Source: Rotaria sp. Silwood1
Taxonomy: Eukaryota > Rotifera > Eurotatoria > Philodinida > Philodinidae
Assembly (NCBI GenBank): GCA_905250075.1
Contig: CAJNOP010000010.1
Location: forward strand, 2,996,223 to 3,060,222
Direction: 5' to 3'
DNA length: 64,000 nt
Translations under genes and position numbers: made by a program
Part shown: positions 393 through 58,313 of the stretch, in pieces
Layout of the letters: the number at the start of each line of letters is the position of its first letter
Position numbering within the stretch: position 1 is the first letter of the stretch
Notes under the pieces: model-generated
The model's input: only the letters and a program-made list of their open reading frames with translations
The model's database searches: none
What the model was told of the DNA's origin: nothing

Positions 393-3300
393 GTAGGTCA
401 GATACGTCTATGGAAAGTTTTTTCGAATAGGCGTTCGTGAGTCAGGTGAAGTTTATTGGTTGCGAAACCGTAATATTTCTTGTTTATGGCAAGAAGTACT
501 GTCGGTCGGGAAAATGAGAGATTGTACCCGGAAGTGGACAATTTGCTCACGGCTATACTAGTGAGCATTAATGGCACTTGAATGGTCTGATCAGTGAGTA
601 GTATAGAGAAGGAGTTATGCCACTCCCGTTTGGAATCATAAGATTAGGCAAAAAGTCTTACGAGAAGATTGTGGTAGAGCAACAAGAATTAGATGTCGTA
701 GCTGGTGGTGGTATTGAGGAAGTCAGTTTTTAGGGGTGGCATATTGTTATGCTTTAGTATTTTTCGTTGATGTAAATATTTTTCTTATCGATTCCTTACT
801 TGAATCTGTTTTACGAAGCTGGATAGCGGTATATTTTGTTCTTTACCGAACTGATGAAAAATAATCATAATAGTAATAGTCGTTTTGAAAAAGAAGAAGT
901 GTGTGTGTTTTTTGAATATTTTTTCATAGAAACTAGTTAGAGAGGTACGATGTTCATGGTTTACAGGCAAAGATGAATCTTCGTCGAACTGCTATAGCAC
1001 TTTTTGTTGAACAGGTTTTTCTCAGTCTGGCATGAAGTTTGTTAAACAGAAGAGATCGTCTAAGGTAGAAGGTTTACGATTTCAAATTTCAGAATTGCAC
1101 GAGCATCGTTAACTGAAGATGTATAAAATCTGTTAGTCGTGTGTTATGAATTTTAGTCAATAATAAGTTGTGCACATTTTACTGCATGCTATCGGCAGTT
1201 TTTTTTATAGAAAGTTGACCTTTTTTGTCATTTTTCAACGAAAAACTCCATCTTGTAAACTTATTCAAAAGCGTATTTTTTTTTTTGAAAAGATAGGTGA
1301 GAGACTATCATAAAACTTGTCAGAAAAATCTGATATTGACTATGCGATGCAGTTTTATCTCCTCTTTTAAACGGTGGAAACCGCATTTCTCTACCTAGTT
1401 TCTATCAAAACTTATTCAAAAAATACATTACACTTTTTCTTTTCTGAAATGAGTATTAGTTGAAGAATAATAGTACTCGAATGCCTTTTTTGGTGTTATA
1501 TCGATATAGACTTCGAACACGACTGTTTTCAGTTAATCTCATTGCAACTATGCAGAATGTTCTTTTCAAGTTCATACTTTCGTCTCTGCTTTCAAAAACA
1601 TTTCATGTAGATAATTGGATCTCAAACTTTTTGAAGTTAGATTATGTTTCTAAATTCAGAAATCCTATGCAGTACTCTTATATAGGCATAGCTTCTTTGA
1701 CGTGAATAAGCATCTCTTGTTACCACCTAGTTCCACTATAGTTTAGGTAAAATTATTTTATAATATAACTAGATAAAAAAATTCCCAACTGTATATTTTT
1801 CTTTAAATTGGACTTTTTTTCTAGGAACTACTGGGCAGAATATAATAACAACAACGCCATGTTATTCAGGAGATATTATGTATCATGATAATATTGTTTT
1901 ATCAATTAAACAAATTGAAAGAAATCTTACTATGCCCATATTTTCGTTACGTACTGATACAACTGGTGTGGCATTTCCAGACACTCAACAACCAACACTT
2001 TTAGTTGTGCTAAATCATACACTTGTTTCACAGATTATCTCGATCTCAGTACCCAATACTCGTGGTGCAACAAACGTCAATCAAATTGAATTAACATTCT
2101 ATGGTACAGATGGTCAGATTCTTCGAAATTCAGTTGGTGCAGAATGGATTGTTGAAACAACTCCTGGTGTTACAACAGTATGTTTTATATTTTACTTTAC
2201 AGAAAAATGACATTGGTTTTTGTTTTAGTTGGAACAACTCGTACCCAAAGTATCTGTTGGAGCATTTGAGATTAAATTAATCAATACAACTGATGGAAAA
2301 TCACCAAGAAGTGTTACTCTTGAAGTAATTGGATGTATTCATGAATGTAAGAAACTTGATAAACGAGAAGATTGAATGTATTTCATGTTATTTGTTTTCA
2401 TCTAGATTATACTACATCAAGTATCCAAACAATTAGTGCTAGTTTATTCAGTGTAACAAGTAGCAGCATAAGTAGCACTATTTTATCATCATCCACTTCT
2501 ACCAGTGCTGGTACTTGTATGAAGGTTCAAGCAATGAATCCTCAAATAGGTGTTATTGATGACATAGTTATTTATCCACTATCATTGAATGCTAATGCAA
2601 ACGATCTTGTACCTGGTCGAAATGGCCTTAGTTTTCCAGAAACAGAAACTCGTCCAAATATAACTATATTATTTAATCGTGTTGGAACTATATCTTTTGT
2701 TCAAATTCCAGCTGAAACTCAATCGAATGTGCAACAAATATTGGTGGAGTTTTTCAATCCATTAGGACAACTGATTACTTCATCTACATCACCAGCCAAT
2801 TTACCACAACTTGCTAATGATTTAGAAGTTAATGATGTTTTAAAAGTTGTTATCCATCTCATTGCAACATCAGATACAAAGAGTCCAAAAAATGTTACTC
2901 TTGATGTTATTGGATGCTTCTTTGAAGGTAATAGAAATTTTGTTCGATAAAAATTCGATAAACCGATTGTTCTTTTTATATTAGTTAACTAGCTCTGGTT
3001 TTATGAGAACTTTTATCAGTATAACGCCTATGCATCATTCAGCTATTGAACTGTTTTGCAGTGTGAATAAGAGCAAAATATTTTGAATGGGATGCGAAGT
3101 GCAGGATTGAACGATCGATGTAAAAGTTCCTGGAATAAAATTGCTTTATTTTCATTTGCTAAAGCGTTATTTCGAAAAAACAACAACACCTATTTAGAAT
3201 CTGTATTGAAAGTTCTTTTTATCAATATGTTCAGAAAAATTCCATTGAATGATATATTTGATTATTGAGAGAATTCTCGAGTAATATTTAAATAAATTCT

Positions 3301-6300
3301 GCAATAACTTTTTAGTAACGAATAGTGTTCATTTCAATGGATACTGTTGATCTTTCCCTTATCTAATTTTTCATTCAATTGTTGATGAGCATTCCAGAAA
3401 ATACGATAACATTGTCTGATATATCACTAGAAAAAAACCTAGTAGCAAAGCTCTAACTATTTTTCAGATCGATGTTCGCATTTTGCTTTTCTTCATACCA
3501 GCTACACAAGTACTTTGATGTATTTATATCGATAGTATTCCAGATCTCATGTAGTCATCATTTCATATATTTTTATAGGAAAACACTATTCCATTCACAT
3601 AAAACTAGTAACTTGGTTTTTTTTTTCTTCAAAACTCAAAATAATTAAAAAATGATAGCATAAAAAGCTTATCGTCATTTCTCGGAAACTAATGAAGTCA
3701 TGCATTACATATGCTATGGCAGATAATGAATCAAAAATATAATTAAAGGATTAATGAACAGAATTTTCGCAGATAAATGTTAATATGCGTAGCTAGAGTT
3801 CTCATACTAATGAACTTATAGATATATATATATCTGCTTTTGAATTTTCTTTCGGTGTCGATGAGTTGATTGACCGACATTTAATTTTTCTGGTTATATC
3901 AACAGAAAAGAAACTAATTCCAGTAAGTTGTAAATATCTGTTTGAAACATAGAAACTATGTTTTCGTTTTGTAAGAATTATTTTCTGTTTGCTAATCGAC
4001 ATTCGGATCATGTTTACATCACATTTGGCATAAATTTCAAAATACCACACCTATCAGTCATGTCACTGACATAGAGCATCTACTAAGACTCAAAACCCAG
4101 TCTTGATATCTACCTTGATACTATCAAAGATTGTTTCATTCACTAGACCGCTTGAACATTTCAAAGAAACTCTTTGATAAGATTCTGACCATGCATACAA
4201 GCTATATACACAAAAGTAGAATATAACTCAGTAAGAGCTTTGCTCGTGCGAAGTTTCAAGTTGAAACTTGAAAGTCGATTTTTCACGTGATCTGAACCAG
4301 GGCACAGCTTTTTGTTGAAAAACCGAGTAAAATCTCGATATCCCAAGAACGAAAACCTGGAAAACCAAACCATTTTAATCTTTCTTTTTATTCCCTAACA
4401 CTCATCATATTAATATCGTTTCAATCGAGCAGAGATTTGAAATCTCGAGATGTTCTATTATCAGTTTTATACATTATGCAGATGTGTATGACGTCCTTGA
4501 CAAAATATACAATCCTAATTCAATAATTAATTATATTTAACCATATTGGTAAAATTGATTTTTTTTCGTTATAGTTACTCCATTATCAACAACAACCATA
4601 TCTACTTACACAACAAGCCAAAAATGTTTAATAACTGATGGTATGACTGATGTAAACATACTTCCGAATGAAAACATTATCAATAGTAATGATGTATCCA
4701 TCGGTGATCGAATACGTTTAACGGAAACAAGTCCAGGTTACACACCAACATTAACAGATGATAAAATCACAATAAGACTAACAAATGATAAATCTCCAAT
4801 AGCTATTGGTGAAATAATAATAACAGCACAAAATTTTCTATCAGCTATATTATCAATAAAAACGACAGATGAAAAAATATGGAAACCATATGCAACATTA
4901 ACAAGTACTCGAACAACATTTGATAATTTATATGCTACTGAATTACAATTTCAATTTACACCTGATACAAGTTTTATTAAGTTAGGTGTTATTGGATGTT
5001 TTCCACCAACAGGTAAGAAAAGGAAAATTGTTTTCAATTTGAAAAAATTATCTAACTAATTGTTCTTAGTTACAACAATTTCAACATCAACCACAACACA
5101 AACTACAACACTTTCATCGACTAGTACAACCTCCGTTTGCATTCTTAGTGAATGGGGACCCTGGTCGAAATGCTCATCGGAATGTCAACTTAATCGTTAT
5201 CAATCTCGATCACGTTCAGTCTTAAATGGTACAACATGTAGGGATCCATTGGATGAATCACGTTCATGTGATCATACACCTTGTCAACAATGTACCATGA
5301 CACGTGAAAATTATATTCAAGAATTAGAACGTGCACCACCAAGTGATTGTAAGTTTAATCTTTTTCTTTAACTAAATTAGAAACAAACAACATGTATTTG
5401 TTAAAGATTTGGTTGGATATATGATTGATTCAATAACAGCTGTTCAAACGAACACACCAGTTTATATTGGTGATATACTTGATCGTAATACATCTATATT
5501 TGTTGATAATTGTACACAACTTATGTGTAAATCAAATGGATTGATGAAAGTTAAAGTTCCATGTCAAAGTAAATATAAATTTTTACTTGAATCAATAAAA
5601 AAAAAACAAATAAATTTAATTTTTTTGTTTCAAAAATTATAGGTGATTGCAAATATACTTCAATGTGTCACTGGAGTAAATGTGATGCTTTATGTGGTCA
5701 ACCTGGTAATCGAACACGTAAGCAAAGTTTAATCATAGAAGATTCATCAAAACTAAATCCATTATGTACAAGAGAAATAATTGAAACGTTACCATGTATG
5801 GGTGATCCATGTCCATGTACGAAAGGTGTCAATTGTACATGTGATTTAACTGAATGGAGTGAATGGTCAGCATGTTCTTTACCATGTGGTGGTGGTCAAC
5901 GAGAACGTACACGTCAATATCAAACAGATTCAAATGACAATTGTACACCAAATAATTTACGTGAAATACAATCATGCAATGTAGAATGTTGTCCGGTTGA
6001 TGGAAAATATACACCTTGGTCTGAATGGTCATCATGTACAGTAGAATGTGGTTCAGGAATACGAAAACGACAGCGAACATGTACGGATCCATCACCATCA
6101 TGTAAAGGTAAACCATGTGAAGAACATTCAATTGATACAGAAGTATGCAATACACAACCATGTCGTAAGTAAAGTCATTTTATACATATATCGAAGATCA
6201 TAGAAAATTAATTTTTCTAGAAGAAACTTGTAAAAATGATCAAGTATATAGTGATTGTGCTAATGAATGTGATACATCATGTGAATCATTAACATGTGAT

Positions 6301-7838
6301 AATCAATGTCAAAAACCAGATAAATGTGCACCTGGTTGTATCTGTCCTGACAATAAAGTCATTGGCCCTAATGGTCAATGTATTTATCGTAAAGATTGTC
6401 CATGTCGATTATCAATTAATAATACAACATTAGTTAATGGTGAAAGTAATATTCGAGATCCTTGTAAAACATATACATGTAAAGATGGTTGCATTATAAC
6501 CAAGGATAATAAATGTACATTATGTGAATGGTCACCATGGACACCATTTTCTGATTGTTCAAACACATGTAATGGTACACAAAGTCGATTTCGTACATAC
6601 GATGGACCTAATTGTCCAGATAAACGTACGGAAGAAGAGAAACAACCATGTTCTTCAAATTGTACAATTGTTTGTTATGTAAAAAATACTGATGGTTCTG
6701 TTGTTACATATAATGTTGGTGATCTTATTGAAGAAACACGTTGTAGTCGAACGTAAATATTTATTTTTTTTCTTTGTAGAAAAAAATTTATTGAGAAAAA
6801 CTGTATTTTTAGAGTTTGTCTTGAAACCGGTTCAGTTGAAACTCAGCCAATCGATGGAACACGTGTTGATGGCCAATGGAATTTATGGTCACCATGGAGT
6901 GAATGCAGTCAAACATGTAATGGTACACGTACACGTTTTCGATTATGTACGTCACCAGCACCAGAATGTAACGGAGAAGTTTGTAAGAAATTACCTCACA
7001 CACAAACTGATCTGGTTAAAATTGAGAATAACCTAGCAGTTCTTGAAGAAATTGAACGTGATAAATGTAATCAGCTTTGTAAGTTGTTGAAATATAAAAT
7101 AAGTTCTATAGATTAATTGGTTTTTCTTTTCTTTTATTAGGCTTTAGTACTACAACGCCCGTTTCTACAACGGTTACAACTGCTCATGAAGAATGTTTTA
7201 TGTCAAATGGAACAAACATTATTACTTTACCAGTAAGTTTATCAATAGATATATTATAAATATAGTTTAATGTATTATTTAGCCTCAACAAATTATTCCT
7301 AATCCAACAAATTCATGTGAAATATGCGCATGTAAACATGGTGTAGTATCATGTTCAACAATTTGTTCTGAAAATGAACAAACATGTTCATCTAAACAAT
7401 CTCAAGATACGGATAATATTTATACATGGATACCAGCTCAACCAGGACAATGTTGTGGTACATGTAACAAGACCAAAGGTATAGAAATTAATAATACTTT
7501 TCTTTTGAATTCTATTTTCTTTTATAGTTGAAAGTAAATGTCGTGTAAAAATATTGAACGATGAGTATATTCGTGTTGATGGATGCGTATCAATTATACC
7601 TGTTGGTCGTGAACAATGTACTGGTGGCTGTGATTCTCAAGCAAGTAATATTTTAACAATAGCAAATAAGATTTATGACATGGGTAATTCAACATGTAAA
7701 TGTTGTGCACCAAAAGAAACTTATACGCAGACAATTTCAATGGATTGTAAAACAGTAGGTAACCAAGGACACGTTGTATCAGCTACATATACACGTATTC
7801 GATCATGCGAATGCCAAGCTTGTGTTGGTAAAAGTTAA
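2..7838 (+). CDS. SCO-spondin/mucin-like secreted glycoprotein, 3' part
   Basis: The 5' end lies before the window; 1393 residues are visible. Exons: 2-392, 1825-2177, 2229-2346, 2406-2927, 4575-5012, 5070-5348, 5407-5568, 5643-6164, 6221-6752, 6813-7078, 7141-7232, 7283-7478, 7528-7838; all junctions are GT..AG and in phase. Order of parts: Thr/Ser-rich decapeptide repeats (1-130); three similar modules each ending in V-I-G-C (131-287, 288-461, 462-607); TSP1 repeats (about 627, 760, 820, 873) with WSxWS-type tryptophans; a TIL domain (about 930-990); VWC-like; TSP1; VWC-like; TSP1; VWC; and a C-terminal cystine knot (1294-1390) with the C-T-G-G-C turn. TSP1-TIL-VWC-CTCK is the tail layout of SCO-spondin and gel-forming mucins, so I infer a large extracellular, probably disulfide-multimerised glycoprotein. 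No VWD or LDLa domain is visible here; these may lie upstream. Exact orthology is uncertain. Confidence 0.85.
393..1824 (+). other. Long intron 1 of the SCO-spondin-like gene
   Basis: A 1432-bp intron with a strong donor (GTAGGT) and an acceptor after a T-rich tract (TTTTTTTCTAG). It is over twenty times longer than most introns of this gene. I see no credible exon, RNA gene or recognisable mobile element in it. Confidence 0.6.
2928..4574 (+). other. Long intron 4 of the SCO-spondin-like gene
   Basis: A 1647-bp intron between the second and third VIGC modules, from GTAATA to a TTCGTTATAG acceptor. It holds short open frames without coding character and no repeat I can define. The flanking exons are both phase 1, so a lost or alternative module exon in this gap would have kept frame; none is visible. 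Confidence 0.55.
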
Positions 7839-11833: not shown

Positions 11834-14800
11834 CTATTTTTTCATGATTATTGTTGAATTTATAACCGTAATATTAGATGTATATTGTGCCATAACGGTA
11901 GTTGATAAACTTTTTTTTAGCTTCCGATCATATGAAATACAATAACAAAAAGAACGTAATTCATATTTATCTTGAATACATGCTGATGTTTGACCATAAA
12001 GATTAACACGAAGAATATCATTGAATACTTGTATTCGTTTTGTTTCTTTATGATAAAGAAGACGACTTTCAAATATTCCACCAGATGGTGATACTTCAAA
12101 AACGACTGTATATGCATGAGTAAAATTTGCTTTTTCATTTTTGACTTTTTTTGGTATTGGTAATTTTTCGAATTCAGCTCGAATAATTGTTTTAAGTTCA
12201 AGTGGAAGACATAAATGTTTATGCAGTTTTAATTTTACATTATTTATATAATCAATACTAGCTAATGTTAAGTCTTTGATCTCAGGTAATGTTGTATCAA
12301 GTGGAGTACTACGTGAACATGGACAATATTTTGCTAAAATAGAAGAGAAAAAAAAATACTTTTATAAAATAAAATCATTAGAATAGTTACTCACCAGGTA
12401 TACCAGCTGACGAACAATTTCGTTCGGGTATAGGATGAAAAAGTGATACACCCGATGTTGTTGAACGCCAATCGACTAACAGAGGATCAAATATAGATGG
12501 TTGTTCAACCATCTTCAGAATGTTAGCCAATGTTTCGTAAACATCCCACCAAGATGTCAATACTAAATTCAATGATAGTAATGGAAATTGAATAATAGAG
12601 ATGTGCGGGACATGCATATTTTCTATCTGATACTTTAACTGAGGAAAATTTTCTAATCCTTATCCTATTTTACGCTGATAATCTCTAGTTCATAGTTCAA
12701 GATAGTCGACATGTATTTATTTTCTTTATAATTTACTGTTTTTTTAACATTGACGAAATTTTGCAAACGGAAAAAAAGACAGAAACTTCTATAATCTATT
12801 TCAAGATATAATGTGCTCAATCGTTTTTTAAAAACGTTTTGACAGGAACATCATAGAAATCTGATTTTCATCATTCGAGAGAGAAGAGCCGGAGCCATCA
12901 ATCTACATCGAAATTATTGTTAGGTCATTACTTTATACTAATGAGAGAACTACTCAAAGTCATAATTGCCCTTTGAGCTCCTATTGTACTTAGAGGTAAA
13001 TCTTAGTGAGAAAAGCAAAAGCCTAACTAGGTCTGTTTTGATTGTGTTTCGGCGATGAGTTTTGATCGCTTTACGAAGTTTTTGATCCAGTTTTAGGTAC
13101 TCTTCAGAAGATCGAATAACTGAATTTTGAATTGATGTTTTGTCCATAGATAGGTCTGATGATTCTGAAAATATTCTGAAAGCTTTAGATGAAAAGAGTG
13201 TGTCTTTGTCGAGATATTGAATTTTTAAATAAACTTGATTTTTGTGGTAAACAAACATTTTTTGGAAACTCAATATCTCAACACAATAACATACTTTTTG
13301 GACTGAAAATTTCAGGATATTCTACCAAACATTAAATCTATCTATAAGCAAAACTTCAGATCGATATTCCTTCATTTGATTTTTTGATAAGTATCTATAG
13401 CTCGATCAAAACTTCCGTAAAAAACTCATAGTTTGGCTCCAGAGTCCTACGGGCACGAACCCTTTTAGAATTGTTCTAGTCTTATTAAGGCATCCTTATG
13501 AACTGTATATGACTTCAAACGGCGGGTATCCGTTCGCAAGATTCTCTCGGAAGTTTATTACAATTGTAATGATTGTTTTTAACAACATTTTAATAGCTAA
13601 GCAGCAGTAGATGTAGAATTTCTGTGGACAGAGGTACTCTCTAGAAGGAAGGTGGCAATCATAGGAAAAAACCCATAGGTCCACGAAAAATAAAAGTTAT
13701 CCTGTTTTACTTTTTTATAAATGATATTTAGTCTTTTAGTGCCTTTAGTGCCTTTAGTGCCTTTAGTCCCTTTAGTCCTTTTAGTCCTTTTAGTCNNNNN
13801 NNNNNAAAAAAAACAGGTTTTTTGAGGTTCATTCAAAGTAGGATAAACTCATTTTTCGTTCGCCATTGCAGAAAAGAGTGAAGGACCAATCCAACCTTCA
13901 GGCTGGTGTCGCTCCTCATGCTGACCACTGCTCTCTCCTCTCGTCTCCTTAAATTTACCTCCACGACTATATGAGCTTATTATTAGATAATCTAAAATTC
14001 GGAATAAAGGAAACAATCATTTTTGCAACATATATTTCTCATACTTTGTTCATTATTTTTTAAATTCTTCATAGCTTGTGGAAATTGTTTAAATGATTGT
14101 GGTAATAACATAGAAAAAAAAGGTAATTTAACTTCAAAACTTCCAATACGTGTAAGTCTCAAACGATGTTGTCTATGACCATGATCGCCACAAAATATTA
14201 TTATTGTATTATTTAATAAATTTTTTTGAAATAAATTTTCAAAAAATTGTTTTAGATCATAATCAATCCAAAAAAGTCTTTCTAAATAATCATGACTCAT
14301 TTCATTCATTTTCATAATACCAAATGTTGGATAATCTGATGTTTTATGATGAATATCAATAAAATCTCTAAGCCAATCTAATGATAAATGATGTAATAAT
14401 TTATTTAAATAACATGGTTTAGGATTTGAATTTCCTGCAAATTTATTATAGGACATTGTTTCATATAATGATAACCAATATGGACGTAGATAATAATCAG
14501 TTGGTGCTTGACGAAAACCATTTTTTAAATTAAAAAAAGCACTTTCACGCCATTCTTCACTAAAGTATGTTGTATAATTTAATCGAGAAAAATTTTTTAC
14601 TATAAATGGATAATTATCAAATGGTCCAGGATAATGAACAATTTTTTTAATCTGATAACGTCTTTTAGTTTTTGGATCAACTTTTGTTTCTGTTCGAATA
14701 AACTCATATCGACTATCATTTCTATTTGGTATTAGATAATGTGCCGCTGATTGACCAAATAACATAGGAACAATATTTTCAAATGTACCGTCACCAACAA

Positions 14801-17800
14801 TAGTATGACGTTGAAATGTAAATAAACCTTTAGATTTTAAATAAGATAGAGTTTGTGGTAAGGCACGACGTGCTTGTAAATCGCTTACAGCATCAAGTAT
14901 AATCATCATTACGGATGGTGGTGAACGATTCGATAATGATGATGATTGAAATAAATTTGATATCCAATTCGATTCTGTTTTATTTAACCATACATCACGT
15001 GAAAATGGTGATTTTTTAATACGTATTAATGGATGAATATATTCGTAGACAAGATCAGTAGTTTTATTATTTGTTAATGAAGTTTTTTTAGTTGTTGATT
15101 TTATATCAATAGTATTTGGACATTTATATCCACTAAATAGAAAAAAAACATTATTAAAAAAATCACTCAATAAAAGAATATATTGGCTTTGGATTTATTT
15201 TTTTTATTTAGTTCATTGCAAAGGATAAAAAATAATGTTTTTTTTTAGGAGAAAGCGAAAATGAATTGACAAATTCATAGTACAAGTTTTATGTCAGACA
15301 ACTAGAGGCTTGCACTGGGCAGCTGAGACTGAATGTCAATCTGTCTTAGTGTCAAATTGCTAAATTTTGTCTTCTCAAAAGTACATAATGGTTTTTACTT
15401 TTAAGCGTCAATTGTACTGTGCTGGTTGTATCAGAAATTCACTCTTACAAAGTAATAAGTGCATTCTGGAAGTAAATTCAATTCAATGATTCTGTTTGCA
15501 TTTACGGTAATGTCTATATGTCAGCGATGCAATTATATAGTTTTTTTGTTTTTGAACTACAGTAGGTTTGTTAGAAAGAATGATGCGAAGAACGTGTTTA
15601 CATAAATTAAGACAAGAAAAATAGATATATCCGTCATTCACCTGAATGACAGACTTTTAACGATTTATGACTAATAGCTTCTTTCCTTGTTTTTGATGTA
15701 CATTCATTAACATTGAAATAGTTGAAATGAAAAGAAGAGTGCAACTACTTCTTGTCTTCATCATTTTTCTTCTAAACTTGTTATTCTAGTAATGCTCATT
15801 CGTCCTTGATTTCTACTTTTTATGCCGCTTACAAGTAAAAAAACTTGGGAAACAGTCAACATATATTTTACTTTTACATGGTACTACGACAAAAAAATGA
15901 AGAAAAATTTCCTTACAACTATGACAAGCTGTAGCTCTGAATCGAAGACAGGACTGATACAGTGTTCTTACGTTCAATCGTTTGAAGCTACTCGTATACT
16001 CTGACTAATTACATATTAGCCATGACAGCAAATGTATGTCAAAATTTAGTCAGAATGCTTTTGGATGGGTGATTTGAGACAAACAACCATTAGTGACTTG
16101 TTCAGGATCATTTCATGACTGATGGTACCGAGATTTGAGCATACTATCTATTGACTACGTATCGAATAACCTAATAACTCACTCATGATGAATCAAAAAT
16201 TAGAAGGACTAGAAATAATTTATGAACTGATATCCTTTCTTTTTCATGCAACTGAAAGTTTTTGTTTTTTTATTATAAATTTCTCGACTATTGTTCGCAT
16301 TGATCAATTATCGACACATAATTTCCATAGACCTTTTTTCTGATCCAGCAAAACTAATAAACTTTAACAGGTTCTTTATCTAATTAAAGTAATTATAAAA
16401 AGATAAACAAAATTTTCATCTATTCGCTTTTGTGAGATCACGAAAATAACAATCCGATAGGAATGTTCAGTATTTAAAGACAATAAATATGTTATGAGAT
16501 CAAAACCTCGTGCATATTTAATTACCACACCATAATTAAAGAGAAATCGGTGTAACTTTAATAATTCGACAATGACAATAGTTAATGACCTGAGGTTTTC
16601 AGCCATCAAAAGAGGAGAGCTCCGAACATTCTTTTTGTCTCCTACTATATACGACAAAATTAATTAAAACCTGACCACCTTCAAAAAAATTCAAAGAAAT
16701 CCATGAAAGTAATGTTCTAGTTCGATATCTTGATTTTGACATGTGTTGGTGATAGAGAGACTTCAGATCTATACTTCAAGTCACGATTCAGATGATAATC
16801 TACTCATATCTAAATGTACAGCAAACGAAATCCATATGTATTTAGTCAAATTATATAGAATTCTTTTAATTTTTAGTAAATCTTCTTCACATGAAACACC
16901 GATTTCATACATTTTTTCAAATCTTTTTGAAAACTTGATGGATTCTAAAATACTATTGTTTTATATAATCTTAAACAAAAAGACGTCAGAAGTTTTTTCT
17001 TCTGGTTGCTGAAACCCGTAATTCACTAACTGTCGCCGCTAGTGAGTTATTCAGCTTACACCCATTCCTCTTTAATTCTGGCGTCTGCATTAATACATGA
17101 CGGACAATGCGAAATTTATCCTAAATTTTTCTTTAATTTTTTATCAAAGTATAAATACAGCTTTGTATTCAAAGATTTTACCCATCGGAACTGAAGTTCT
17201 GAATGAAAGGCATGTCATATTTAAAATCAACATAAAAATCTGCATGGATTAATGTACTCATTTGCCACTGAACTTCTGATGATCAAAAATTTTGAATACA
17301 AATCTGCTTTGCTATCGTATCAAAAAATCGATCTTTTTAACAATCGAACAATATGTTTCAACAAGCATGCATAATTTATTTCCTAAGTATACGATATGTA
17401 AAACCAACAAATTAAATTAGGATAAATATTAAAGCTTAAGATTTTTTGGCGCATTTTGGTTTTATTGTTAACCTAGTTTTTTACTTTTTACTAGAAAAAT
17501 ATCTTTTAAGTATGTCAAAAACAGCATTCTTCGGAATAACTCAATGAACTCTATGCGATTGTGATGAAGGAAAAAAAGGTCAGAGCAAAATTTTACTCCA
17601 TTTTAAATTATCGATACTTTATATACCACTGAAAGTCTTAAGTATTATTTAAAAGCATTTTCTTCTTTACTATACTTATATAATATTTATGTTATCAATC
17701 ATGTTATAGTTTTTATAAACGAGAAAACCATAAAATGCGCTGCAACTTACAATATACAATTGAGTATCACGTGTTTCTCTTGACACATCCGTCAATATAA

Positions 17801-23955: not shown

Positions 23956-23961
23956 TTTATT
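23956..23961 (-). promoter_or_regulatory. Polyadenylation signal (minus strand)
   Basis: TTTATT on the plus strand reads AATAAA on the minus strand, 93 bp after the stop codon of the neuropeptide gene. Confidence 0.5.
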
Positions 23962-24053: not shown

Positions 24054-24615
24054 TTACAAAGAAGCATTTTTCTTTCCAAGTCGGAAATGCATGGCTGCAG
24101 CACGTTTACCAAAACGATAAGGCATAGTGGCTCGTTTACCAAATCGATAAGGCAAGGTAGCTCGTTTTCCAAATCGATAAGGTATAGCCCAAAGACGACT
24201 ATCACCAAAATGTATAGTCGGATTACTAGCACGAGCATTTATCTTTGCATAACGTTCGTTATCTATTTGAGGCCATATTGCTTGATTATGTTGATGTCGA
24301 TGATTATTATTATTATGATTATGTTCTTCACCACTATTGTTAGTAGTTAAATCTTCATCATTACTCGGTGTAAGATGATTTGAATCATCAATAGTTTGAT
24401 AATGATGAATAAAAGCAGGACTTTGATGTTGCTAATAAGAAAAAATAAAACTTAAATGATAGAAATTTTTAAATATAAACAAAACAAACTTCATCATTAG
24501 CAGACTGTGTTACTTGTTCAACTACTTGTGGCATCTGTTTTGTTTCCGTAAGTGTAACCATTAGAAGAACAACTATGGATAGTTGTAAGAAAACGAAACT
24601 TGTTATTATCATCAT
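24054..24615 (-). CDS. RFamide (PYRFamide) neuropeptide precursor
   Basis: Two exons (24490-24615 and 24431 down to 24054, with a 58-bp intron) encode a 167-residue prepropeptide. The N-terminus M-M-I-I-T-S-F-V-F-L-Q-L-S-I-V-V-L-L is a signal peptide. A spacer rich in His, Asn and acidic residues follows. The C-terminus holds four tandem amidated-peptide units, each with the Gly amide donor and a dibasic cleavage site: LWAIPYRF-G-KR, ATLPYRF-G-KR, ATMPYRF-G-KR and AAAMHFRL-G-KK, then a short tail N-A-S-L. The first peptide may be released at the single Arg of D-S-R. Predicted products are three PYRFamides and one RLamide, secreted by neurons and acting on GPCRs. The repeated 30-bp units show internal duplication. 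The donor is GTTTGT, weaker than consensus. It resembles invertebrate FMRFamide-like/short RFamide precursors in layout; I cannot assign a named family. Confidence 0.9.
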
Positions 24616-24835: not shown

Positions 24836-24907
24836 GCCCTTATAGCTCAGTGGTAGAGCGCCAGTCTTGTAAACTGGAGGTCCGTAGTTCAATCCTGCGT
24901 GGGGGCA
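24836..24907 (+). tRNA. tRNA-Thr (anticodon TGT)
   Basis: This is a 72-nt cloverleaf without intron. The acceptor stem GCCCTTA pairs with TGGGGGC (two G-T pairs). The D-arm is GCTC..GAGC. The anticodon stem CCAGT/ACTGG encloses loop CTTGTAA with anticodon TGT. The T-arm CGTAG/CTGCG encloses loop TTCAATC. The discriminator is A. Internal Pol III A box (TAGCTCAGTGG) and B box (GTTCAATCC) are both intact, so the gene looks functional. Confidence 0.95.
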
Positions 24908-26185: not shown

Positions 26186-26239
26186 ATGACCTCTGATTTT
26201 GATTCAACAGATCACCCAGGTATTTGTTTTCTTCTATAA
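26186..26239 (+). promoter_or_regulatory. Possible upstream ORF in the DGAT1 leader
   Basis: An ATG at 26186 opens 17 codons and stops at 26237-26239, five bases before the DGAT1 start at 26245. The sequence between looks like a minute GT..AG intron (24 bp), but splicing it would not put this ATG in frame with DGAT1, so I read it as an upstream ORF. Whether it is in the mature leader is not shown by the sequence. Confidence 0.35.
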
Positions 26240-26244
26240 TTAGC

Positions 26245-27651
26245 ATGACTATGCAATCAATTATAGATCGACCATCCTTATTGTCTGCTTCAAGTGGTTA
26301 TGAAAACTATCGAGGTTTTCTTAATCTTCTTTATGTTATATTGGGAATAGGAAGTTTTCATCTTGTTATTGAAAATATTCTTAAGTATGGATTATTAGTT
26401 GAGTTTGATTGGCCATTAAGATTTTTAAAAGATCCAACTAATTGGCCATCAGTATGTTGTTTTGAATAATAAGAGTGTTTAGTTTTATTTTGTTTTTTTT
26501 GTTCAATATCTTCTAGGTATTTCTTATTCTATTGAGTAATTTATTTATATTATTTCAATTTTGGCTTGAAATAAAATTAAGTAAAATATCATTATTTAAA
26601 AAGCCTTTAATATTATTTCAAATACTTAATCTTTGTTTAATACTTATTTTTCCTGTTATTTATATATATCATCGTCAACCAAATTCTGCAGGTGCTTTTA
26701 TAGCTGTATGTCTTTATTCGATTGTATTTTTAAAATTAGTTTCATATACACATATTAATTATCAATGTCGTATAGGTTTATTAAATAAAAAACAAGATAA
26801 TTTAAATTCTTTTATCATATCTGAAGGTCCAATAATTTATCCAAATAATTTAACGATTAAAAATCTTTATTATTTTTTATTTGCACCAACACTTTGTTAT
26901 GAATTAAATTTTCCACGTTCACCATGTATACGTAAAAGTTTTTTATTTCGACGTTTGGTTGAAATACTTGTTATTTGTTCATTACAATATTGTTTAAGTC
27001 AACAATGGATATTACCTATATTACGTACACTTGATCGACCACTTTATCAATATACTTTATTAGAAAATATTGAACGTCTTTTACGTTTATCATTACCAAA
27101 TCATTTAATATGGTTATTATTATTTTATGTTTATTTTCATTCAACATTAAATTTACTTGCTGAATTATTATGTTTTGGTGATAGATTATTTTATCGTGAT
27201 TGGTGGAATGCAACTGATTTATATGAATTTTGGAATAGATGGAATACAAGTGTACATGATTTTTGTAAAAGACATATTTATTATCCATTAATTAGTCATT
27301 TTGGTTTAAGTAAATCTCTTGGTTCACTTGTTGTTTTTGTAATAAGTGCTTTTTTTCATGAGGTAATTCAAGAGAATCGTTTTTTCGTTTATGTTCAGAG
27401 AAGATTTAATGATTTTTTTTTTGTTTTGATCTATTTAGTATTTAATTAGTGTTCCATTACGTATGATCCGTCCATGGAGTTTTCTTGCTATAATATTACA
27501 AGTTCCAATAGGTTTAGCTGTTAAACGTGTAAAAGGTGAAAATAAAACTTATGGAAATGTGGTTGTATGGATATCACTTATACTTATTCAACCAATTGCT
27601 ATTCTACTCTATATTCAAGATTTATTTTATAGAGACTTTGTAAATCATTAG
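26245..27651 (+). CDS. DGAT1: Diacylglycerol O-acyltransferase 1 (MBOAT family)
   Basis: Three exons (26245-26451, 26517-27362, 27439-27651; introns 65 and 76 bp, all phase 0) give 421 residues. The enzyme joins diacylglycerol and fatty acyl-CoA to make triacylglycerol in the ER membrane. Alignment by eye to animal DGAT1 is nearly continuous: S-G-Y-E-N-Y-R-G-F-L-N near the N-terminus; N-L-T-I-K-N-L-Y-Y-F-L-F-A-P-T-L-C-Y-E at about 179-197; the acyl-CoA/active-site motif F-Y-R-D-W-W-N (294-300); and the catalytic His350 in S-A-F-F-H-E. Several hydrophobic spans agree with a multipass protein. It is about 65 residues shorter than the human enzyme, mainly at the N-terminal regulatory segment. 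I chose ATG 26245 because no upstream in-frame ATG is available; ATG 26251 is the alternative. Confidence 0.93.
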
Positions 27652-31500: not shown

Positions 31501-34500
31501 CTTCTCATCAAAATTATTGTTCATTTCTTTGACATTTTGTTATTAATCTATTTAGCATTTTTTGACCGAAAAGCTGATGTGTCTGATGCAAAAGCACTGT
31601 ACTGTGATATGACAACGACGGAGAATTGGTTCATTCAATGTAATTAGGCCAACTATGAGCAAGAATCGTAGAATAGGATCAACAAATTGCTTGACTCCTC
31701 GAGCAACAGATGTTTGTCATTAGACGAGACTGTAAATCACTTGAAGCAAAAACAAGTCGTGTTTATTGAGAACATGATGTGAAATATAATCGACCGATAT
31801 CAAAGCATTTGTTCGCAGAAGCTCGTTAAGACAATTGATTTAAAATGAGAGCCAGATCTTGAGACTATGAACTATAATCAAATGATCTTTTCACATAAGA
31901 CCATCATCGGCCAGAATTCTGTCAAAAGATTGGTTGGCTTGGAGTTTGTGTGGGGAAAAAGAGAAGGTCGTACCAAGCATTAAGCATTCTATAAAAGGCA
32001 ATATTTCAAATCGCGTATGAATTTCAGGTTTTTCGATCGCATCGTCTGTTATAGAAAAAAGCTGGATGCAGAATCAATTAATGGTATTTACAAGTGTGAT
32101 GTTTTGCTTACAGCTTGGAAAAGGTTTTGAATACAATGCAACATTGTAGAAACTGCAAGAAGATCCCAAGCACATATCGAATAAATAATCGAATTTCTAA
32201 AGTTGATGAAAGTTAGGCTAACTTTATATTTTAATGAAAGAAAAATACTCCTGCCTTCCGGCTATCATGTAGTATAGAATGCTGCCTTATGGCACATTCA
32301 ATAGTCCAATGTCTTCCTTACAACTAATACTGACTGAAGCTTTGAACAGAAGACCAACTTGATGCAAAGTTCTTACGTTTTCCATACACAGGAACTCGCT
32401 ACAAAAGCAGATGTACGTTATAACGTAGTCGGCATGCTATCGGACGGGGGACATGAAACAAACAGTCGTTAGTGACTTGTTCAGGGTCATTTTTGTGGCT
32501 GGTGATACTGAAATTTAAACACAGCACTTTCTAGCGACGTGTTGAACAGCGTATCAACTTATCCATGATAACCTATATTATATATTATGAGAATGTAATC
32601 ATAATATAAATGTTTTTATTTGACAAAGTTCGTCTAAGTGAGAGTGGAAAATAGTTCTGATCAGAACCGTATTAACTAACCGTTCATTTAATTTTGTTTT
32701 ATTATTTATAAAATCAGGATAACCAACTTTTTCAGAAATTTTTTTTAATTTTTTCTTTGCTTCAATTTTTGATTGTTCATCTATCCATTCAAGTTTATGA
32801 AGATTTTCATCAAACATTTGACGAATATTTGTAATGATTTCATTTGCTGTGTGTCGATCTCGTTCACCAAAAACTGCTTTGATATAGAGAGCACCTAAAA
32901 TTAAAAATTAGCATTATTAAATAAAATTGTTTTTTGTTTTTAAGATTTCAATTTACCAAGTCCATAACCAAATGCAGCATCAGTTTCTTTAACACAATAT
33001 TCCCATCTTTCAGGCAATGATTCCATGCCATAAAGTTCTTTAAATAAAGGTAATGTTAATTTCTCAAATGCCGTTGATAAATGTGAACTTAAATCAAATA
33101 TAAGTGAAAATAATAAATGATCAATAACAATATAACTTTTATTAGGTGTTAATAAATAATTTGTTAAAATTGTTGATAATTTTGACATAAGCTCAAGTGA
33201 TAAAACAATTATTTGATCATTTTCATTTAATTTTATTGGATTTGATGCATTTATATTTAACATATCATTAAGTAATGAATAAATATCTAATCCTATTGAT
33301 TGATACTGTTCTTGAAGTTGTTTTAATGTCATTAAATAATATGTTTCATTTGGTTTCTGTAACGTTTCCATTGGTACTTCAAAAAGAAAAGAAACAATAA
33401 GAATATTTCAAAATATTCAATAAAATTTATATTACAGTCCTTCTGTTTCGTCGATGTTTTACAATACGAATAGTATGATTTTTGAAAAGAGATGGGAATT
33501 TTGCACTGGATATTGTGGAACAATCAATTTTTGAACAAAAATTTTTTTTTTGGTCTAAGTCGACAAATTCATTAGGAATCTTACTCATGTAAAAAAAAAA
33601 AGAAAGACGCCTAAAAATCAGATAATAATCTATTATAATGACACTATTTTAATCTGATTAAAATCAGATTTTTCAGCATCAAAGGAAAAAATTATTTTGA
33701 TTTTAATCTTTTTGTAATGGATTAAAATCGATTACAAAAATTTAATCTATTAAAACTGAATGCTAAATTTTTGTAATCGCCTAAAAAAGATTAAAATCAA
33801 AATAATTTTTTCTTTCGATGCTAGAAAATCTGATTTTAATCAGATTAAAATAGTGTCATTATAATAGATTATTAATCCGAAAATAATCGATTTTAATCTA
33901 ATTTTGAGTCATTTTTTATACATGGGTAGTCGCAAAAGAATGGTCAGATTTCAGCGCTCTTAGAGAAAAACATCATTTTTTTGCGAAAAATAAACAGTTG
34001 AAAAAGCCTAGAACCATTACTTTTATCGATTTATAAAATTTTTCGTTCTGAAAAAGTGACTATTCTTTTTACGCTATTGAGAGAACTACCCTAACTGACG
34101 CTCATCTTTTGAGCTCATAGTAGACACTCACAGGCAAATATCAGTAAAAATATCAAAAATCTAGAAGGATTCGCTTCTATTGGCCTTCAGCGCCAAGTTA
34201 TGACTGGTTTATTTAATTTTGGCCTCATTTTTAGGTATTTTCTTGAAGACTGAATGATGCAGTTTTGATCTGAAGTTTTCCCCATAGAGAGGTCTAATGA
34301 CTCTTAGAATATTCCAAAAGTTTCGAAAAGACGTCTTAAATAAACTTGGTCGTTATGTCTTTCCACTAATCCTATATCAATGAAAATTTCAGAGAATGTT
34401 CTTCTACATCTGCGACATACACGCAGTTAGCAAAACAATGAGTAATTGCTTCTCGACTGAGACACAGCTTTTCTAAAAATTTGAGTTTTGAAAGACTTTT

Positions 34501-36871
34501 CGTGATTTATTTCTCAAAGAAACGTTTTACGAGAAAAATAAAGGCTCACTTCCAATCAACGTGAAAAACGTGCATCCAGCGAAATATCATTTGTCTATTT
34601 TTACAAGAAAAGTTTTTTTTTTTACAGGAGTCTAGGGAAGAGTTTCCCTTAGGGATTTTCTATCGCAAATATTCTTTCTTTTCATCCATCTTATTTATGA
34701 GTCTAACAAGTTAATATTTCTATGAAAAAATTCGTTTTTTGACAGGATATAAATCATGTTCACGTGCTTAATAGAGATTGTCCACTACATCATCCCCAAA
34801 TTTCTCATATTAACCCACATAAAAAGTTTTATTTCTACGAATACTTGGTGCACTCCATAATGCTTAGCAGTGTGCATTTTTATTAAAAATTATTTATCAG
34901 CAATATGCATTTAGATCAAATTACAGTTCTAGGGTTCCGCTCAGCAAGTTAACGTAGTGTCAAGCAGTCCAAATTTTGATCACACTATAGTTAAGTAGAT
35001 TTAAGATTATTCCTTTTCTTTTTGTCATCACATCATTCATGTATCAAAATGTTATTTGATCTTTCTTCTGCTCTCTAGTTGTCTGATATGACACGTCATA
35101 TATATTATTTCACACCATTTCTATTAGAATCAAAGTAGACTGCTCAGTTCTATATCGTTCTGCTGTGCAGAACATTTTATTGAAAATACATACTGCTAAG
35201 TACTATAGAGTGTACCGAATTTTTATAGAATTTCTTGTTTTTAGGTAATTTAATAAGAAAATTTGAGCACGAGCCGTAAGTCCTGTATGACTTTCGGTCT
35301 GGATCAGAATTCATGTCGCTCTTCTCCAATGTTATGTGATGAACAGTACTTTATGTACATTGTTTCTCTCAAAGGAGCTATTTAAAACATCGAGGACGCG
35401 AACACTTGTTGTTGAGAACATAGACACATAGTAAGTCCTGCACACTTCGAAAAAACTAACACGATCCCCGGACGGACGCCACTCCAACACTGCATAAAAT
35501 ACTGATGATGAGTTTCAAATTTGATAGTTGAAAAAAGTATACTTAAATATCATCAATCGTAATGAATATTTAATAATGAAATCACAAAAAAAAATTATCG
35601 TTCTATTTTATTCTACTTGTTCTCATACTTCGATTTGATCGAACTCTTATTGATACGTATTGATTATTGTTACAATATATTTTCAAAAAAGTGAATCAAT
35701 TTCTTTCTATATCTAAATAACTTACAGCTAATTGTTGCAAGTTCGATTTCAAATTGAATAATATCATTAATACGTGTTTCTGATTGATTTTTTTCAAAAC
35801 CAAGCAATTGTAATAAAGCTGAAGCAACATTTATATATGTATCTCGAATCTTAAGAATAATAAAAAAAAACAATAAACTTTATAAAAGAAAAATTTTTAT
35901 ATTTACAATTTGATTTCTTGCATCTGTATCTGGATCACTTCGATTGTTAACAGTCGAATTTATATAATAGTCTCGACTATCAAGACCAAGTTGAGGTTGA
36001 TTAATCTTTTCATCAAATAAAAAGAAAAAATTAGAGAAATTCCTCAACACATTTCACTTACATGAATTACATTCCATGTTGAATTTTTGTCATCTGGTCC
36101 AATAGATATTGGTAATAAATATGAGAAGCCATATTTTGTCGAAAGTGTTTTTGTTAAAAATACAAATAAATTTTGCCAAGTTTCATTCTTATCAACATTA
36201 ATCCATTGATTTATAGTTATATTAAGATTATCTTTTAAAAATCTTTCTAATGGTTGACTTTGTTGTCGTTCAATTTCACTTATATTCATACAGGATTGAT
36301 AAAATTTAATAGCTTCATTTTCAGCATTAAATACTGATAATGAATTATTCATTAAAGGCTGTTCAAGAATACTTTTAAGTATAATAAGATTTTTTCGACC
36401 TAATTCTTTTGTTGTTGACCATCCTGAATGACCTTTTGGAATAATATTTGTTTTTATCCAACGACCACATACAAATTCATGAAAATCATCACATGGACTT
36501 ATTGTTTGATTCATTCCCGAATAAATTGATGATGATACTTGAATACATATAGGTGTTAAACATAATTGTTCAGGATCTTTTTTATCTTCATGACGATAAA
36601 AATACATTAGAAAAATTAACAATACCGAACATAAAAGTATTACATTTATCATAAGTAAATAACGTTCAAGACGTGTTCGTCGTGATAGACAAATTTTCAA
36701 ACGATTTAAATTAAATTTCTTTATTGGAGGACTTGTATTTGATGCATAATTACGAAGTTGAAGTTTAAATTCTAATTGATGTGGTTCATCAACATCAAGC
36801 TCAGGTAAAGCATCTGCTTCATTAATATCAGCTGTACTAAGCTCATCGTTAAAGTGTTTATATCGACTCAT
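28597..36871 (-). CDS. Neprilysin-like M13 zinc metallopeptidase
   Basis: Ten exons on the minus strand: 36062-36871, 35907-36005, 35726-35849, 32957-33376, 32681-32894, 31258-31371, 31049-31187, 30802-30989, 28841-28989, 28597-28773 (about 810 residues). It is a type II membrane protein: cytosolic tail 1-70, TM about 71-92, then a Cys-rich ectodomain with [12 protein letters not shown]13 marks are N-A-Y-Y-T-P with [13 protein letters not shown] (about 598-620), the zinc motif H-E-I-T-H (644-648), the third zinc ligand in E-N-I-A-D (704-708), and a C-terminal C-x-x-W. The family cleaves small extracellular peptides, including neuropeptides. Oddity: the exon at 30802-30989 has one base too many in a 5-A run (plus strand 30959-30963). 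As written, translation stops right after H-G-F, although frames on both sides are intact. Sequencing error or recent lesion cannot be told apart here. Confidence 0.85.
29859..30637. mobile_element. hAT-like non-autonomous DNA transposon
   Basis: The inserted block in intron 8 of the neprilysin-like gene begins TAGAGACATCTGAGACC and ends with the reverse complement of TAGAGATGTGCAAGAGC, a hAT-type terminal pattern. It is flanked by 8-bp sequences GTGATGAC (29851-29858) and GTGGCGAC (30638-30645), equal at 6 of 8 positions. An 8-bp target duplication is usual for hAT. No transposase is encoded in its ~780 bp. The decayed duplication means an old insertion. Confidence 0.5.
31500..32570 (+). mobile_element. 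Ty3/gypsy-like LTR-retroelement fossil (broken)
   Basis: Inside intron 5 of the neprilysin-like gene and opposite to it. Two separate short stretches (about 32050-32110 and 32265-32340) keep the look of reverse-transcriptase core motifs of the Ty3/gypsy type. The remainder is heavily decayed with many breaks, no recognisable LTRs and no intact gene, so it is old. Ends are guesses set by the change in base composition. Confidence 0.45.
32425..32575. repeat. Dispersed repeat R, copy 2
   Basis: Direct match of 16015-16185 with the shared core TTAGTGACTTGTTCAGG. It sits next to the retroelement fossil, and whether it belongs to it cannot be decided here. Confidence 0.5.
33585..33927. mobile_element. 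Foldback element, ~340 bp, in neprilysin-like intron 3
   Basis: Two arms of about 150 bp are near-perfect reverse complements. Both carry ATAATCTATTATAATGACAC, TTAATCTGATTAAAATCAGA and AAAATTATTTTGATTTTAATC. The loop near 33754 is under 40 bp. High arm similarity suggests it is younger than the other foldbacks here, or kept homogeneous. It is AT-rich with no coding content. Confidence 0.75.
34075..34440. repeat. Family D foldback relative, partial
   Basis: It shares GAGAGAACTAC, TTTGAGCTC, TTAGGTATTTTCTTGAAGA and CCATAGAGAGGTCTAATGA with the left arm of 12943-13549. Only one arm is clear. It lies in intron 3 of the neprilysin-like gene, just downstream of the 33585-33927 element. Confidence 0.5.
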
Positions 36872-38281
36872 CTTTATCCGAATATTATTCTATCTATCTA
36901 CGTAAGCTCATAATTCAATATGTATACGCAGAACAATTAAACCAGTCAGTTGATGTATAATATAGATAGCGCTACGATTGTTTGTATTGTATTAAGATTG
37001 TACTGACATCTAAGTCAAAAATTAACTTATAAAAAGAAATAAAAGAAAATCTTTTTTTTTTTTTAAATAAAAAATTTATTTTTTTTTTTTTTTTTTAATA
37101 GATTAATTTTTTTTCAAGCTAATTAAATTTGATCATTGCACCTGGATCGCACCTTTGTATAGTCGTTGCTTTAGTATTTAAATCAAATTAAATTTTTTAA
37201 ATTTAGAAATACAGTTTTCTTTGATGAAATTTATAGAACAAGTTGTATCTTAAAAGAAAACATCATTGAAATGAGAATTTATGTTTAGATTTTGATATGC
37301 AAATAAATATGAAAAAACTTTATTTAAATAATGATCATAGATCGAAAAAAAATATTTATTGTAAATATCTGTCATTGTCTGTTATAGACGGATATCTTTC
37401 CATTGTATCTTAATAATTTATTCAAAATCAAATGTTCTTCATTTGATTTTTTCATTCATTCATTGATTATAGAAGCTTTTTAATAAGCTAATTCAACAAT
37501 CTTCATTAGAGTTTTTAAACATAAATATAAATCCTATTTTTGTTAAGCTTTGATTTATTAGATACATCACTAATATGTATCTCAATTTTTTTATCCCATT
37601 TGAAAATCAAATTCATAACGCTTTCCTTCGAAAATCAGACTCACCCATTCGAAAGTATGCGTTAGCACCTACACATTCCCAAATTGTTCCTTGTCAAGAA
37701 CAAAACTAAATAAAGCATTGTGTCTACCATCTACTGTTTGAGTAGTCAACGTTTGAAAAACATCAGTTTTTTTTTTCATTCGATTATACATAGTGTTTCT
37801 AACAATGCACAAAATCTTTACTTGAAAAACAAAATCAGATACAAGCGACATAATCTTAGTACTAATCCAAAGATAGAATCGATTCAGTTCCGAAAAGATA
37901 CGAATTGATTTCATCTTTCGTACTGATACTTACGCCGAAAGATCACTGAGAGTTTTGTTATCTTTTATGCCTTCATCATCATCAGTATTTAATCCGGCGC
38001 GCTTTCATAGATCTTGTTAGTCCTCCCGAAGTTACAAACAAGTTTTATACAGAAAATCTTTCAGTTCGACAGGGGACTATGAAACTTCATACATTCCGCA
38101 TCATACCCTAAATGGTTTCGTCTTACGTATATGAAAAAAGGTTCGATACAGAGAGTAGCATGTATGATTTGTCTATGCTCCAAAAGAGAAACCCTGGATC
38201 AAACAACATAAGAAACTATTTTTCTTTTCTTATTTCAGATTTTTTCAAATAATAATGAAACATTCTTAGATAAAAACAAGA
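36872..38281. other. Divergent intergenic region
   Basis: 1.4 kb between the minus-strand neprilysin-like start and the plus-strand Ser-rich gene, so it should hold both promoters. Long T and A runs occur at 37050-37105. A strong 3' splice-like site is at 38219-38238, see its own entry. No gene is seen. Confidence 0.5.
38219..38238 (+). promoter_or_regulatory. Pyrimidine tract plus AG 44 nt before a start codon
   Basis: TTTTTCTTTTCTTATTTCAG ends 43 bases before ATG 38282. It could be the acceptor of a 5'-UTR intron or a spliced-leader trans-splice site, a process known in bdelloid rotifers. No donor for a conventional intron is obvious upstream. Confidence 0.4.
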
Positions 38282-56972: not shown

Positions 56973-58313
56973 TCATTTTACATTAACCGTCGGTGTAAAT
57001 GTACTTTCAACTCCATTAACCATACTTCCCATATGAAATCTTGATAAATTACGACATGTCTGTGCTTGACCAACTATAATAATGCGTGGTTTACAACCAT
57101 GTCTTAACATATTTAATCGATTTTGAAATTCTTCTCGATAAAGACGTGATAAAAGACAATTTGTATAAAAACGTGTAGCTGATATTAAATACCATGAAAG
57201 ATAAATTAATACAATAAATAATTGCGCTACTTTCGATTGTGCTACAAATGTTGAATATTTTTCAAATAAATAAGCTATTTCAGTTATAATATGAACAATA
57301 ATAAATGGTGCAACATTAATTGATATTAATATAATCATTTGTGTATCTAAACGTGAACGTCGTCGATGTGAATTTATTGAATAATGTTTTAGACGATTTC
57401 GATTATTTATTATTTGATAATGATTTGTATTATTTGTTGCCACTGCTGTTGTTGTTGTTGATGGTGAACTAATAAATGAACTTGATACATGAGTTGTTAC
57501 AATTGTTGAATTTATATTCATATCAAATGTTGAATTACAATGAACAATTGTATCTAATTTCAAAGGTCGTGAAATGTTATCCGTTGGATTTTGTTGTTGA
57601 TTTGATTTATGAAACCGTTTTTTTAATTGTATTGTTATTAAACATGTACGACTTATAGATATAAGAATAACTGCAATTGGTATAACCATATAAATAGTTA
57701 TATATATAGTATGAATAAATATTTCACAAATGAGATTTTTTTGTTGACACTTATCATCAAAACATAAAAATGTATATATAACATTTTGTAGAAGACTTGA
57801 AATAAATGCTATTAAACATAAATAAATAAATCTTTTTCTTGTACATAATGTTTGACTTTTTGTTGGCCATTCAACTTTAATCCAACGATCAACAGAAATA
57901 AAAACAAGTACCCATGAAAATCCAAAATAAAGTTCATAATTAAAACTAAAATAAAAATAAATAACAGTTTAATCAATTTGATTTCAAAGTAAAATTATCA
58001 CTTCAACATACATTGTAAAGAATCGACACCAATGTATAGATATTGTATAAACATTGATTTGATAGATAACATCAAGAAAATATTGTAAACTAGCAATTAA
58101 ATTAAATATATCAACAAAAGCCATAACAAAAAATAAAAAACCGGTGGAATGTTGACGAAGTTTCTTTGAACTAAATGTTACAATTGATAAAAGACAACCA
58201 GTATAACCAAATAGATAAAGAATAAAACAAATAAAGGCAATAAGTACACGTAAACTAGGAATGTGAACATGAATAAGTGCTGATGTTGTTGTATTATTCA
58301 TTCCGAAATTCAT
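56973..58313 (-). CDS. Class A (rhodopsin-like) GPCR, peptide-receptor type
   Basis: Two exons (58012-58313 and 56973-57945, 66-bp intron, phase 2) encode 424 residues. Seven hydrophobic helices can be laid out. The N-terminus has N-linked sites (N-N-T-T). TM2 carries the conserved Asp in V-M-A-F-V-D-I-F-N-L. The first extracellular loop has H-W-C, giving the disulfide Cys, and TM3 ends in D-R-W in place of D-R-Y. A long Ser/Thr/Asn-rich third intracellular loop follows (about 220-310). TM7 has the unusual R-F-Y-T-N-C where N-P-x-x-Y is expected. Such divergence is common among invertebrate FMRFamide-type and orphan receptors, so ligand and G-protein cannot be named. The first exon end was set at GTATGT because it restores the frame and the conserved loop. 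Confidence 0.85.

Follow-up and report, generated by a model that had tools for sequence, protein, structure and literature searches.

A probable multi-copy RFamide-type neuropeptide precursor gene with PYRF-amide and FRL-amide cassettes in a bdelloid rotifer

Introduction

Several groups of short amidated peptides invite comparison with the rotifer locus described here. FMRFamide and RYamide precursors, and also an FCAP precursor, are recorded for Rotifera by De Oliveira et al. (2019; PMC6425005), and APGW/AKH (PMC10730642) and excitatory peptide/CCHamide precursors (PMC6617912) have likewise been reported from rotifers. The LFRFamide family is described as spread over lophotrochozoan phyla (PMC6425005), and spiralian myomodulins end in RLamide or RMamide (PMC8557429). 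GnIH peptides end in LPxRFamide (x = L or Q) and NPFF peptides in PQRFamide (PMC4062910), and the nematode FLP-15 and FLP-21 peptides are GGPQGPLRFa and GLGPRPLRFa (PMC4196577). RF-amide and RL-amide variants are known within a single class, the nematode FLPs and their flp genes (PMC11658156), and RFamide endings arise repeatedly and converge (PMC4062910; PMC11658156).

Gnathiferan neuropeptides have been called the 'next frontier' (Thiel et al., 2021; PMC8557429), and the one study to include bdelloids, represented by three Rotaria species, recovered very few precursors (PMC8557429). Here we describe a locus of Rotaria sp. Silwood1 that lies in a 64-kb stretch of DNA, analysed as a whole and hereafter called the window.

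Results and discussion

Gene structure and splicing

Minus strand positions 24615–24054 translate as a two-exon gene with a joined coding sequence of 167 codons plus stop, the 167 aa precursor consisting of MMIITSFVFLQLSIVVLLMVTLTETKQMPQVVEQVTQSANDE from exon 1 followed by QHQSPAFIHHYQTIDDSNHLTPSNDEDLTTNNSGEEHNHNNNNHRHQHNQAIWPQIDNERYAKINARASNPTIHFGDSRLWAIPYRFGKRATLPYRFGKRATMPYRFGKRAAAMHFRLGKKNASL from exon 2. Its features are as follows:

24541–24615, minus strand: predicted signal peptide, residues 1–25, best cleavage between VTLTET and KQ
24490–24615, minus strand: coding part of exon 1, 126 nt, 42 codons, translated as MMIITSFVFLQLSIVVLLMVTLTETKQMPQVVEQVTQSANDE
24432–24489, minus strand: intron, 58 bp, GT-AG, reading GTTTGT...CTTATTAG, phase 0, 3' end TTATTAG
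24054–24431, minus strand: exon 2 with spacer, four peptide cassettes and TAA, 378 nt including TAA
24195–24431, minus strand: spacer, Asn/His-rich, acidic and Cys-free, with single Arg/Lys and no dibasic site
24160–24194 (start approximate), minus strand: cassette 1, (LWA)IPYRF-G-KR, N-terminus dependent on a single-Arg cut between GDSR and LWA
24130–24159, minus strand: cassette 2, ATLPYRF-G-KR, from translation, 30-nt direct repeat family
24100–24129, minus strand: cassette 3, ATMPYRF-G-KR, from translation, 30-nt direct repeat family
24067–24099, minus strand: cassette 4, AAAMHFRL-G-KK, aligning with cassette 3 from the C-terminus
23956–23961, minus strand: candidate polyadenylation signal AATAAA, 92 nt 3' of the stop codon

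On re-reading, the coordinates, the 58-bp intron length and the cassettes given in the earlier note proved right to the base. In-frame stops lie 5' of the precursor ATG, and GC content at codon positions 1, 2 and 3 of the joined coding sequence is 52%, 37% and 15%, a coding-like pattern typical for a region of 28.6% GC. On this reading the two-exon locus would code for a secreted precursor with multiple peptide copies.

Four other introns of the window, placed at breaks of reading frame or homology in the genes for the M13 peptidase, the DGAT1-like protein and the GPCR, are close to this one in length (56, 62, 65 and 66 bp) and have similar AG acceptors; the intron acceptors in the window read TTATTAG, ATTTTAG, CTTCTAG and TGAAAAG. 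Compared with the GTAAGT/GTATGT donors of the neighbouring genes, the precursor's GTTTGT is a weak one. Eight further GT-AG pairs are likewise in frame, half of them with the same acceptor (alternative donors at 24480, 24513, 24522 and 24525). The splice named in the earlier note holds insofar as a 58-bp GT-AG intron is present and the frame is open, but its junction is not unique, other donors also being in frame; we regard 24490/24431 as the best-supported of several frame-keeping junctions rather than as proven. Because no alternative GT-AG pair disrupts the signal peptide or any of the three PYRF cassettes, the conclusion that a precursor is encoded is independent of the exact junction. 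An unspliced message would yield no peptide, since the exon-1 frame stops within a few intron codons.

The weight-matrix score at the TET/KQ cleavage site is 6.0 (an approximate von Heijne-type eukaryotic matrix). Hydropathy peaks at 2.67 at residue 8 and never exceeds 0 past residue 30, the N-terminal hydrophobic segment being the only one in the precursor, which has no transmembrane segment. The matrix score and the lone hydrophobic segment support the predicted signal peptide; its N-region carries no positive residue, a point against our reading of the locus. Cys is absent from the whole precursor. Neuropeptide precursors of such a type are disordered.

Peptide cassettes and predicted processing

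Exactly four dibasic sites occur in the precursor and each directly follows a Gly; three of the four cassettes end in RF-G-KR and the other in RL-G-KK. Aligned from the C-terminus, cassettes 3 and 4 pair as T-A, M-M, P-H, Y-F, R-R and F-L, and this residue-for-residue alignment suggests that the RL-amide stems from a diverged copy of cassette 3 and is not an unrelated peptide. The Gly donors and dibasic sites of the four amidation cassettes are as first read, but a check of the whole precursor found no dibasic site N-terminal of cassette 1, so that LWAIPYRF lacks one on that side. The length of peptide 1 is accordingly uncertain: the octapeptide LWAIPYRF assumes a cut at the single Arg between GDSR and L, and a cut at another single Arg, between KINAR and ASN (with K four residues before), would instead give the 20-residue ASNPTIHFGDSRLWAIPYRF-amide. 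Computed [M+H]+ values of the amidated peptides are 866.488 for ATLPYRF, 884.445 for ATMPYRF and 915.498 for AAAMHFRL, and for the two versions of peptide 1 they are 1064.604 (LWAIPYRF) and 2347.209 (ASNPTIHFGDSRLWAIPYRF).

In a processing scheme taken from established neuropeptide biology, the precursor, 167 aa long, would enter the secretory pathway by means of its signal peptide, prohormone convertases would cleave at the KR, KR, KR and KK sites, a carboxypeptidase would trim the basic residues after the convertase cut, and PAM (peptidylglycine alpha-amidating enzyme) would turn each exposed Gly into a C-terminal amide. Processing is predicted to release ATLPYRF-amide, ATMPYRF-amide and AAAMHFRL-amide, along with a longer PYRF-amide that would be LWAIPYRF-amide in the case of single-Arg cleavage. 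KK, found in the last cassette, is a weaker convertase site than KR.

We infer that the precursor is expressed and processed, and that its peptides have a neuronal role and a receptor, most likely at least one rhodopsin-type GPCR of the RFamide groups (PMC8557429). Peptide-gated sodium channels are less likely receptors, because the FaNaC branch is known from molluscs, annelids and brachiopods (PMC9234716). It is conceivable, if rather unlikely, that bdelloids, as gnathiferans, have a lineage-specific PYRFamide system with a receptor of its own and that the RL-amide acts through a different receptor, one gene thereby feeding two pathways.

The open frame, the cassettes, the Gly-preceded dibasic sites and the signal peptide together give good support to the original identification of a neuropeptide precursor with RFamide/RLamide cassettes, and we hold with high confidence, as far as sequence can tell, that the locus is a classical multi-copy neuropeptide precursor of RFamide type.

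Comparison with described families

Three of the four cassettes end in Arg-Phe-amide, the feature that defines the RFamide class in its broad sense. The protostome FMRFamide-related peptides (FLPs) share with this precursor the signal peptide, tandem short peptides, Gly donor, KR sites and RF-amide, but they have FxRF where PYRF stands here; in PYRF and HFRL the fourth-last position is taken by P and H respectively instead of F, and the Pfam family FARP (PF01581) matches a cassette with 13.4 bits, below its curated cut-off of 15.5. The lophotrochozoan sNPF-type LFRFamides have an aromatic-R-F-amide ending in common with the locus, but carry L four from the end where the precursor has P, and the precursor additionally has the FRL variant. 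Spiralian myomodulins, defined by repeated RLamide/RMamide, share R-L-amide with the fourth peptide, AAAMHFRL-amide, alone, the RL ending being found in one cassette and RF-amide in the other three. Given the RF/RL variation among nematode FLPs, such a divergent RL-amide cassette is unusual but not unprecedented. Luqin/RYamide peptides end in RYamide or a luqin-type motif, and their precursors have a C-terminal cysteine pair; this precursor has no Cys and its endings are YRF and FRL. The FCAP, APGW/AKH and excitatory peptide/CCHamide precursors of rotifers all differ from it.

The LPXRFamide (GnIH) and PQRFamide (NPFF) peptides have P as the fourth-last and R as the penultimate residue and a terminal F-amide, as do the PYRF cassettes, and ATLPYRF and ATMPYRF also have L or M before the P. 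In chordates, by contrast, x is L or Q, whereas the rotifer cassettes read L/M/I-P-Y-R-F (x = Y) and the fourth peptide ends in HFRL. FLP-15 and FLP-21 of nematodes also end in P-x-R-F-amide, but with L where the precursor has Y, and with different N-terminal residues and copy number; of the endings compared, theirs and those of the chordate peptides come nearest to PYRF-amide. The nematode acceptor consensus is TTTTCAG-like, and the introns of the window lack such an acceptor; this speaks against a nematode origin of the window, though it does not by itself make the host a rotifer. Since RFamide endings converge, the likeness to LPXRFamide and PLRFamide is no evidence of orthology, and on sequence grounds this L/M-P-x-R-F-amide likeness is probably convergent.

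The strings PYRFamide, PYRF-amide, PYRF-NH2 and PYRFG have no mention in the full text of 5.39 million searchable papers, and the matches listed for the looser string PYRF include unrelated genes and chemicals. The exact peptides may thus be unreported, and the precursor may already be among the rotifer precursors of De Oliveira et al. (2019; PMC6425005) under another name. The earlier suggestion of an undescribed rotifer RFamide outside any known family is borne out to the extent that no narrower family tested fits; the broad RFamide class does fit, and undescribed status is not established.

Within an RFamide-type precursor, three origins were weighed. The gene may be restricted to its lineage, having originated through recruitment or through rapid divergence, with no one-to-one orthologue outside the host clade and only convergent likeness to LPXRFamide/PQRFamide, and to this we give a little under an even chance. 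PYRFamide and PYRFG not being found in the searchable literature agrees with such an origin, although such a negative from full texts carries little weight; so do the repeated evolution and convergence of RFamide endings (PMC4062910; PMC11658156) and the fact that gnathiferan neuropeptides are barely sampled (PMC8557429).

It is also possible, though somewhat less likely, that the gene is an orthologue of canonical FMRFamide, LFRFamide/sNPF or myomodulin, PYRF and HFRL then reflecting lineage-specific drift. FMRFamide- and RYamide-type precursors are reported in Rotifera (PMC6425005), LFRFamide too has an aromatic residue beside R-F, and the RLamide/RMamide ending of spiralian myomodulins recurs in AAAMHFRL-amide (PMC8557429). 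Against this, the precursor has neither FxRF nor LFRF, ends in RF rather than RL in three of its four copies, and has only a sub-cut-off match to Pfam FARP.

Membership of the NPFF/GnIH (LPXRFamide) family proper, as a protostome representative, seems very improbable: the L/M-P-x-R-F-amide ending of ATLPYRF- and ATMPYRF-amide recalls LPxRFamide and PQRFamide (PMC4062910), but x is Y, neither L nor Q, and the protostome receptor orthologues respond to SIFamides, which are little like LPXRFamide (PMC4062910).

Tests against chance

Clusters of at least three R-[FLYMIVW]-G-[KR]-[KR] motifs in one frame within at most 40 codons occur once in the 64-kb window and in none of 60 dinucleotide-preserving shuffles of it; when the exon-2 residues were permuted 200,000 times, the maximum was two motifs, compared with the four observed. 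The PYRFGKR codons of cassettes 1–3 vary only at silent third positions, in three codons. Cassettes 2 and 3 differ with dN 0.05 and dS 0.69, values that are indicative only, the cassette sequences being short, and that point to conservation of the repeats at the protein level. That the locus is a chance open frame or decayed pseudogene with no working precursor, as its AT-rich, low-complexity spacer might suggest, is hardly credible in view of the shuffle and permutation results, the bias of cassette differences to silent sites, the strong 52/37/15% GC pattern by codon position and the undisrupted frame.

Searches of phage records, of GTDB genome contigs and, by pattern and by protein, of IMG/VR contigs found no homologues, as expected for an animal gene, and NCBIfam profiles gave sub-threshold noise only. 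A PDB sequence match to the cassettes was set aside as a chance match.

Neighbouring genes in the window

A tRNA-Thr(TGT) gene at 24836–24907 (plus strand), the sole tRNA and sole Rfam match in the window, lies about 220 bases upstream of the precursor ATG on the opposite strand. Also on the plus strand, the neighbouring gene at 26224–27600 encodes a DGAT1-type acyltransferase, with short introns and a PDB match to diacylglycerol O-acyltransferase 1 (E 2.7e-73). At 32599–36889 (minus strand) there is a gene for an M13 (neprilysin/ECE-like) membrane metallopeptidase; the M13 family degrades neuropeptides in other animals, and the linkage of this gene to the precursor is probably coincidence.

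A rhodopsin-type GPCR gene at 56973–58373 (minus strand) has an intron of 66 bp, encodes a DRW motif and matches receptors of the aminergic and peptide types weakly. This GPCR (58.4–57.0 kb) was considered as the precursor's receptor and rejected; in the PDB it matches adrenergic receptors best, at weak E-values, so no link to a ligand or to the precursor can be drawn from it. The window further contains a multi-exon SCO-spondin/mucin-like gene at 1773–7838 (plus strand) with TSP1 repeats, TIL and a C-terminal cystine-knot (DAN-like), an exon at 13992–15194 (minus strand) for a DUF229/sulfatase-like protein (400 aa, Pfam E 6.5e-67) and an exon at 49424–49861 (plus strand) for a FLYWCH zinc-finger protein (Pfam E 7e-11). 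The spliced genes for the DGAT1-like acyltransferase, M13 peptidase, TSP1/cystine-knot protein, FLYWCH protein and GPCR mark the host as an animal, and its short introns and low GC content agree with a bdelloid rotifer.

Significance for rotifer neurobiology

A gene of this kind is biologically expected, and its value comes from the thin sampling of gnathiferan neuropeptides (PMC8557429). From the precursor sequences, in situ probes and antibodies can be designed, and mass spectrometry and receptor deorphanisation gain concrete targets. Rotifer nervous systems have for many years been charted with FMRFamide antibodies, according to work cited in PMC6686465, and these antibodies have been applied in Brachionus (PMC13161344); a gene encoding both PYRF-amides and an FRL-amide is a candidate source of the FMRFamide staining seen in rotifers.
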